From: Halorientalis sp. LT38
Lineage (GTDB): Archaea > Halobacteriota > Halobacteria > Halobacteriales > Haloarculaceae
Reading direction: 5' to 3'
NCBI RefSeq assembly: GCF_037031225.1
Contig: NZ_JAYEZN010000001.1
Coordinates: forward strand, 2,480,001 to 2,544,000
Length of the DNA: 64,000 nucleotides
The translations under genes were made by a program, and so were the position numbers. Shown piece by piece: positions 17,752 to 24,245 of this stretch (position 1 is its first letter; each line of letters starts with the position of its first letter). The notes under the pieces are model-generated. The model saw nothing but the letters and a program-made list of their open reading frames with translations. It was not told the DNA's origin and did no database searches.

Positions 17752-17948
17752 ACCCCTCACTCCGCTATCGGGCCCCAAAAACCGTTCGTTGTCGGCCCGC
17801 TGGCTCGGCGTCGCGCGCTCGCGGCGCGCCATCGACGACCCGCCGTCGGCGGCCCGGGGATCCACTCCCCACCGCTGAAATCGGGACTGGAGCGCCCGAG
17901 ACTGCCATGCATCAATCTTTATGGACCCGGCGCGCCACCGTCTACGCG

Positions 17949-23607: not shown

Positions 23608-23793
23608 GCACCGAGCCCAGGGGCCTGGTCCGCTTCGTTATTTATGGCGTAGCGACGCCGTGCAACAGTTGTCCGGGGGACAGATCGGTGGGGGTTCGGT
23701 TTGCCCGGGCTTACTCGACGTGCAACGGTCGGTCGGCGGACCAGTCGACGGAAGCGCTACGTTCAAGTGCCGGGACGAGGTACGACGAGTCGA

Positions 23794-23883
23794 GCGCCGG
23801 TGTTCCACCGAGCGGAGCGAGGTGGAGCTCGGGGCACGAACGAAGTGAGTGCGCCGGTGTCCTGCGGAACGAAGTGACGCAGG
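23794..23883 (+). repeat. repeated tRNA-Gly 5'-end units with GNA-apex stem-loops
   Basis: GCGCCGGTG, the first nine bases of tRNA-Gly, occurs at 23794 and 23851 before the true gene at 23912. Between these copies are three stem-loops: TCCACC/GGTGGA around GAGCGGAGCGA (23804-23826), GCAC/GTGC around GAACGAAGTGA (23834-23852) and CCTGCG/CGCAGG around GAACGAAGTGA (23861-23883). From 23608 to 23793 I see only the DUF4397 promoter and otherwise nothing recognisable. Confidence 0.88.
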
Positions 23884-23911
23884 GCTCGGCGAGAGCGAGT
23901 GGAACGAGCGA

Positions 23912-23982
23912 GCGCCGGTGGTCTAGTGGTAGGACATGAGCTTCCCAAGCTCATAGCCCGGGTTCAATTCCCGGCCGGCGCA
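23912..23982 (+). tRNA. tRNA-Gly (anticodon CCC)
   Basis: The cloverleaf has acceptor GCGCCGG/CCGGCGC, anticodon arm TGAGC-TTCCCAA-GCTCA giving CCC, T arm CCGGG-TTCAATT-CCCGG and discriminator A. CCA is not encoded. No AT-rich TATA element lies 25-35 nt upstream. The nearest AT-richer patch is about 23757-23769, so the primary transcript may include the upstream repeat units. Confidence 0.97.
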
Positions 23983-24051
23983 TGTTGGGACGAACTATTC
24001 GTGAGTCCCGACTGCGGTTCCGGGAATTGTAGCCCTGCCAGTCGCGCGCAG

Positions 24052-24106
24052 CGGAGTTCCCGTGAGCGGAGCGAACGGGAGCACGGGAGAGCTTGCTCTC
24101 CCGGAG
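24052..24106 (+). repeat. 55-bp tRNA-associated module, Gly copy
   Basis: This is the reverse-complement match, with one mismatch, of 19230-19284 at the tRNA-Thr locus. Relative to their tRNAs the two copies are in the same orientation. It holds a CCCGT/ACGGG stem around GAGCGGAGCGA (24059-24079) and an 8-bp hairpin GGGAGAGC/GCTCTCCC (24085-24102). Confidence 0.92.
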
Positions 24107-24123
24107 CGAGCACGTCTGGCTCT

Positions 24124-24145
24124 GGTTCAATTCCCGGCCGGCGCA
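24124..24145 (+). repeat. copy of the tRNA-Gly 3' end
   Basis: Twenty-two bases identical to 23961-23982 (T loop to discriminator A of tRNA-Gly), same orientation, 163 bp downstream. A second, degenerate copy follows at about 24193-24210. Confidence 0.92.
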
Positions 24146-24171
24146 CTCCCTGCGGTCGTTTGCCGGCCGAC

Positions 24172-24196
24172 TTCCCGTTCGCTTCGCTCACGGGAA
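24172..24196. repeat. stem-loop with GAGC-GAA-GCGA apex
   Basis: A perfect 7-bp stem TTCCCGT/ACGGGAA around TCGCTTCGCTC, which reads GAGCGAAGCGA on the minus strand. It lies between the exact and degenerate copies of the tRNA-Gly 3' end. Confidence 0.85.
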
Positions 24197-24212
24197 TCCC
24201 GGCCGGTGCATG

Positions 24213-24245
24213 CGAGACGCGAACGCCAGTGAGCGTCTCGATTTT
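24213..24245 (+). terminator. hairpin plus ATTTT ending the tRNA-Gly unit
   Basis: A perfect 8-bp stem CGAGACGC/GCGTCTCG, loop GAACGCCAGTGA (24221-24232), followed by ATTTT. It resembles a transcription terminator for the tRNA-Gly region. The loop is a 12-nt variant of the stem-loop family apex. From 24246 to 24323 nothing else is recognised. Confidence 0.65.

Follow-up and report, generated by a model that had tools for sequence, protein, structure and literature searches.

The array of repeated pieces surrounding the tRNA-Gly(CCC) gene is best explained as a set of local members of a haloarchaea-wide family of modules, each of ~55-150 bp and carrying one or more hairpins. In these modules, the end facing away from the tRNA is a duplicate of the terminus of the host tRNA, corresponding to its first ~9 nt upstream of the gene and to its last 14-22 nt downstream. 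The exact come-and-go of such modules beside undamaged tRNA genes suggests a small tRNA-anchored repeat of a kind not described before, and no earlier description of these modules was found in the open-access literature searched. The locus lies in a window of 64,000 nt, the whole stretch of DNA that was analysed, which belongs to a haloarchaeal genome of 3.58 Mb in two contigs.

The earlier note, made from this sequence, had reported that the first nine bases of the tRNA, GCGCCGGTG, occurred twice upstream and that its last 22 nt were repeated downstream, once exactly and once in degenerate form, and all of these copies were recovered at the positions given in Table 1. The stem-loops that it described between the copies, as well as the hairpin closing the block, were likewise found in the sequence, the latter with a putative role as terminator. 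The antisense arms, the acceptor-like partners of the 5′ copies and the core shared with tRNA-Lys(TTT) and tRNA-Thr(GGT) had been missed.

Table 1. Features of the tRNA-Gly(CCC) locus, in window coordinates.
Feature	Position	Strand	Basis and remarks
Promoter-like box CGCTACGTTCAAGTGC	23755..23770	+	Conserved in 8 congeners; putative promoter
Leader module 1 (repeats family D1)	23794..23850	+	5′-end copy 23794-23802, GNA-loop hairpin, acceptor-like partner, second hairpin
Leader module 2	23851..23911	+	5′-end copy 23851-23859, hairpin, CTCGGCG partner, spacer
tRNA-Gly(CCC)	23912..23982	+	ARAGORN; Rfam RF00005, 70.7 bits
First hairpin of trailer module 1, GAACTATTCGTGA loop	23984..24012	+	Position and loop type recur at many tRNAs
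Antisense copy of own T-arm, CCGGGAATTGTAGCC	24020..24034	+	Fits own tRNA better than others, P ≤ 5e-4
Shared core	24038..24123	+	GNA-loop hairpin (loop 24064-24074) and GGGAGAGC hairpin
Exact copy of the last 22 nt of the tRNA	24124..24145	+	Sequence comparison
Second trailer module, type Z	24146..24210	+	CTCCCTGCGGTCG loop, antisense acceptor 24160-24170, hairpin, degenerate 3′-end copy TCCCGGCCGGTGCA 24197-24210
Closing hairpin GAGACGCGAACG/CAGTGAGCGTCTC, then GATTTT	24214..24245	+	Hairpin 24214-24239; putative terminator

The mimics at tRNA-Gly(CCC) form the outer arms of hairpins; the inner arm, which lies closest to the tRNA, is in each case antisense to the end that the mimic copies. 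Upstream, the 5′ copy of each leader unit is able to pair with the acceptor-like partner CTCGGSG that follows it; downstream, every 3′ copy is a hairpin arm because of the antisense T-arm and acceptor pieces. The block at 24038-24139 is ~90% identical to blocks placed 3′ of tRNA-Lys(TTT) and tRNA-Thr(GGT), and the T-arm sequences bounding these three cores are each tRNA's own. The type Z module was also found at tRNA-Arg(CCT) of the source genome and at tRNA-Gly(TCC) of a Halorubrum-like genus. Folding of the array as a whole was far better than that of shuffled sequences (z -10.4), a result that palindromes guarantee, and tRNAs were the only known structured RNA family detected in the window (Rfam 15, gathering score). 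At 17789-17879 of the window, ARAGORN called a tRNA-Ala(CGC) lacking Rfam support, which is probably a false positive.

The specificity of the copies for the adjoining tRNA was assessed in the source genome with 42 of its 43 Rfam tRNA matches, each end being compared with its own flank and with all other flanks. The last ~20 nt of the tRNA were repeated in its own downstream flank at 20 of 42 tRNAs, whereas the end of another tRNA was present in 5 of 1610 pairs (0.3%); the first 8-9 nt were repeated upstream at 3 of 42 tRNAs, against 1 of 1590 cross pairs. The self-versus-cross permutation gave P ≤ 5e-4 for 3′ pieces, whether sense or antisense, and on these comparisons a chance origin of the end copies was rejected. 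The same permutation was not significant for 5′ copies pooled over the 42 tRNAs (P 0.06), since only three tRNAs carry them. Tandem duplication of tRNA genes followed by decay was also considered and rejected, as no significant excess was observed of 3′-end copies upstream (P 0.07) or of 5′-end copies downstream (P 0.56). The typical trailer is ordered as tRNA, hairpin, antisense T-arm, hairpin-bearing core, sense T-arm and own acceptor 3′ strand, and its antisense arms track the T-loop variants of their own tRNA, such as TTCGAATCC with GGATTCGAA and TTCAACTCC with GGAGTTGAA. In a sample enriched for carriers, 139 palindromic modules were delimited at 93 of 185 tRNAs, with an antisense arm detected in 98 of them and a median length of 129 bp (10-90% range, 107-172).

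The occurrence of these modules beside tRNAs extends to the whole class. The inverted T-arm pattern GGATTTGAA-N30-60-TTCAAATCC was present in 318 of 391 Halobacteria genomes, representing 77 of 86 genera, and the same pattern read backwards, used as control, had no match in the Halobacteria search; outside the class, a single genome of the wider phylum searched carried it. Among the haloarchaeal pattern matches inspected, 47 of 49 were placed ≤600 nt 3′ of a tRNA. A degenerate (IUPAC) version of the pattern matched 22 of 24 genomes of the same order versus 8 of 124 others, and among the matches listed from outside the class (one per genome) none was module-like by eye. Exact matches to the Gly leader pattern came from 47 of 382 genomes, belonging to 21 of 85 genera. 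The loci outside the source genome were in part picked by the pattern itself. Similar trailer units were seen outside Halobacteria at a tRNA-Ser of a DPANN archaeon (L147, Woesearchaeota) and at a tRNA-Glu of a euryarchaeal MAG (L164, Euryarchaeota Ods02). In seven alphaproteobacterial loci (L132, L137, L146, L151, L168, L116, L142), an inverted repeat GGATTTGAAGTTCCTAT...ATAGGAACTTCAAATCC was found away from tRNAs, with arms ~20 nt apart that resemble a recombinase site.

Comparison of relatives revealed a rapid turnover of modules. Random variation of the flanks among related strains, an outcome considered in the earlier note, was not seen: the flanks change fast, yet they retain the same architecture and the ends of the local tRNA. 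Orthologous tRNAs of congeners carry zero to three modules each, with differing cores, and one to three leader modules precede tRNA-Gly(CCC) in all eight species of the genus. An exact presence and absence was provided by two genomes of the Halorubrum-like genus, so labelled because one member, G113, has an exact match in a named Halorubrum locus (L115). There, the tRNA and both flanks of G015 (L308) and G016 (L309) align except for one 73-bp Z module, which in L309 contains a 14-nt duplicate of the tRNA end, TCCCGGCCGGCGCA, the polarity relative to L308 being unrooted. Across the genomes of this genus, the modules at tRNA-Gly(TCC) occur in permuted order, as none, U1, Z, U1-Z or Z-U1-Z. A near-exact 134-bp tandem duplication at tRNA-Val(CAC) of G005 shows array growth. 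A separate double-hairpin insert occupies one and the same point of the T-loop copy at no fewer than eight loci of different tRNAs, its layout being TTCAAAT/TCCGACCGAC...GTCGGTCGGCGT-hairpin-ACTCCC (L012, L014, L027, L055, L062, L068, L223, L242, L157, L267). Another repeat family, placed immediately 3′ of the tRNA at Ala(CGC) (L016), Arg(CCG) (L029), Pro(GGG) (L049) and L227, combines conserved linkers ACTCCTCGAAAAACGTGGGCGAAAAA...GGTGAACCG with hairpins whose stems are specific to each site. In G006 (C1:2240734-2244715), more than 20 tRNA genes were observed within ~4 kb, resembling a viral tRNA array.

Leader and trailer modules differ in the signs of selection that they carry. In all eight congeners, the box CGCTACGTTCAAGTGC stands at a fixed distance of 23-27 nt from the first 5′ copy and at 85-199 nt from the tRNA. 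Since this conserved box is upstream of the first 5′ copy, the transcript should include the leader mimics; the first 5′ copy thus occupies the position expected for the start of the tRNA. Among 53 distinct leader units, counted without correction for phylogeny, C>T changes in the acceptor-like partner numbered 13 versus no G>A, and consensus pairs included 19 GU versus 3 AC; moreover, the sense strand was the better folder in 53 of 53. Variation in leader stems thus appears to preserve pairing in RNA, favouring selection at the RNA level. In trailer stems GU and AC were nearly balanced (22 vs 27, and 32 vs 26 for the T/antiT pairs), and therefore there is no sign of RNA-level selection there. 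Selection on the trailer as an RNA structure was rejected despite an average folding advantage of the sense strand of ~3.4 kcal/mol, since this advantage is tied to the sense orientation of the GA-rich loops and not to GU pairs. Consequently, the longer precursor carrying the mimics, proposed in the earlier note, is supported for the leader, in view of the box 85-199 nt before the tRNA and the RNA-type stem changes, and is not supported for the trailer as an RNA device, in which GU is not favoured over AC.

The common loop of the modules, GA-N-C-GNA-G-N'-GA, contains a GNA triloop within tandem G.A pairs. With a single exception, the stem-bearing cases in tRNA flanks have a Watson-Crick N-N' pair, and the flanking stems are nearly all Watson-Crick. 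Sequences of the d(GCGNAGC) type form very stable DNA mini-hairpins. With respect to the tRNA, sense GNA loops outnumber antisense ones by 72:22 downstream and 20:2 upstream. Readings of the modules as K-turns or bulge-helix-bulge elements gave no consistent motif by eye. In the available part of a splicing-endonuclease study, the circular-RNA products were introns, rRNA and one 5′ UTR, with tRNA trailers unmentioned (PMC7714728).

The explanation that we favour, which in our judgement stands about an even chance of being correct, is that small palindromic modules bounded by tRNA ends arise with duplication of their target and disappear through repeat-mediated deletion, the leaders being co-transcribed with the tRNA. 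In a gain, a module would insert at a tRNA terminus and the terminus would be duplicated outward, so that the tRNA would stay intact. Loss, duplication and shuffling would proceed by recombination between the direct repeats of the tRNA end, and modules may spread between tRNA loci either as a non-autonomous element or via recombination. Leader modules would be transcribed and then removed in 5′ maturation, presumably by RNase P, and this removal would impose a constraint on the fold of the leader RNA. The inner arm, antisense to the tRNA end, may serve for targeting or may have been left behind by fold-back synthesis. One rule applies on both sides of the gene, cores are shared and the same hairpin insert recurs, and these observations favour non-autonomous modules directed to tRNA ends. 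Against this explanation, duplications of ~9, 14 and 22 nt are unusual for a single enzyme, target duplication by itself leaves the own-end-antisense inner arm unexplained, gene conversion between arrays could imitate mobility, and the empty and filled sites of G015 and G016, being unrooted, could represent gain or loss. The analysis revealed no transposase, integrase or RNA partner for the modules. A broader proposal, which we put forward tentatively and regard as doubtful, is that Halobacteria in general possess a repeat system, mobile or self-propagating, that is guided by tRNAs, served by a host or trans-acting enzyme and operated through ssDNA or RNA hairpins. Such a system would recognise any tRNA terminus via T-arm/acceptor complementarity, its insertion would duplicate the terminus, and the resulting arrays would be repeat-spacer-like, with the tRNA's own end as the repeat.

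Functional leader RNAs and fold-back synthesis are serious rivals, and each may be part of the answer. If the modules were pre-tRNA leader and trailer RNAs under selection, in which the mimic hairpins guide folding, shield the ends or modulate cleavage by RNase P and tRNase Z, the substitution, pairing and folding biases of the leaders, the conserved distance from the box to the first copy, the mostly sense orientation of GNA loops and the antisense T-arms following the variants of their own T-loop would all be accommodated. We consider this unlikely, since module presence varies freely among congeners, many tRNAs have none and trailer stems show no GU preference; furthermore, the uncorrected leader counts could owe some of their C>T changes to strand-biased deamination. 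Fold-back (template-switch) DNA synthesis, to which we assign a low probability, would start at a tRNA end E, snap back at a very stable mini-hairpin, copy itself as E' and return to the template to copy E once more, yielding E-E'-E. It requires no mobile element, and it agrees with the arrangement on either side of the gene, where the antisense arm adjoins the tRNA and the sense copy lies outermost, with the GNA mini-hairpin held in the recurring loop and its nearly invariable Watson-Crick N-N' pair, and with trailer stems devoid of GU preference; however, homologous cores and conserved linkers across tRNAs and genera are unexpected from independent slippage, which alone also predicts no such concentration as that affecting nearly half of the tRNAs.

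A far less probable origin, which we regard as very improbable, is that the copies are scars of integrative elements (proviruses or plasmids) attached at the tRNA 3′ end and shrunk by deletion. Sites of this kind typically carry direct repeats of the tRNA 3′ end, and in L322 and L324 a different, unrelated and apparently gene-bearing sequence, read by eye, directly follows tRNA-Gly(TCC), which suggests that an element has integrated at this same attachment site. As the earlier note had recognised, however, integration at the tRNA 3′ end leaves the upstream copies unexplained, so that the leader modules already contradict it; neither does it account for the antisense arms, the conserved cores or one architecture common to dozens of different tRNAs, nor for an inverted T-arm pattern spread over 77 of 86 genera.

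The favoured modules share traits with several known systems without coinciding with any of them. Archaeal tyrosine recombinases act at tRNA attachment sites, where the tRNA 3′ end is duplicated and the tRNA kept intact. The modules likewise give a direct repeat of the 3′ end beside an intact tRNA; unlike the scars of these recombinases, they are hairpins of ~100 bp, in which an integrase gene would not fit, they include 5′-end copies, and they carry each tRNA's own ends. Casposons integrate at the tRNA 3′ end with a 14-15-bp duplication, comparable in length and place to the 14-nt duplication of type Z, whereas the modules are far smaller and hairpin-based. Bacterial REP/REPIN palindromes are short intergenic hairpins of one family, scattered and non-autonomous; the modules are also short non-autonomous hairpins of one family, differing from REPs in being bounded by copies of the end of the adjoining gene. 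The SMR-A/B elements of Haloquadratum walsbyi have ~80-110 bp, inverted repeats, no transposase gene and a mobility that was left unexplained, and they insert into palindromes, with IS605/PATE elements as targets and no target duplication (PMC3119063). The modules resemble them in being haloarchaeal, non-coding, of roughly the same size class (median 129 bp) and provided with inverted repeats. Unlike SMRs, they are located at tRNAs (47 of 49 class-wide matches 3′ of a tRNA) and not in IS605/PATE palindromes or other mobile elements, and they present target duplication, as indicated by the 14-nt tRNA-end duplicate at the filled L309 versus the empty L308. Haloarchaea also lose segments lying between short direct repeats of 4-20 bp (PMC3119063). 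Module removal or gain is similarly exact between the direct repeats of the tRNA end; such deletion covers loss only, and the origin of the modules and of their own-end antisense arms lies beyond it.

Nearly half of the tRNA genes of the source genome bear modules, and the marker pattern is present in most genera of the class. If the modules are mobile, they would represent a new way for selfish DNA to occupy the most constrained genes of a cell harmlessly, via duplication of the tRNA end. If they are functional, haloarchaeal pre-tRNAs would hold mimics of their own ends, and RNase P and tRNase Z would have to distinguish the real ends from them.
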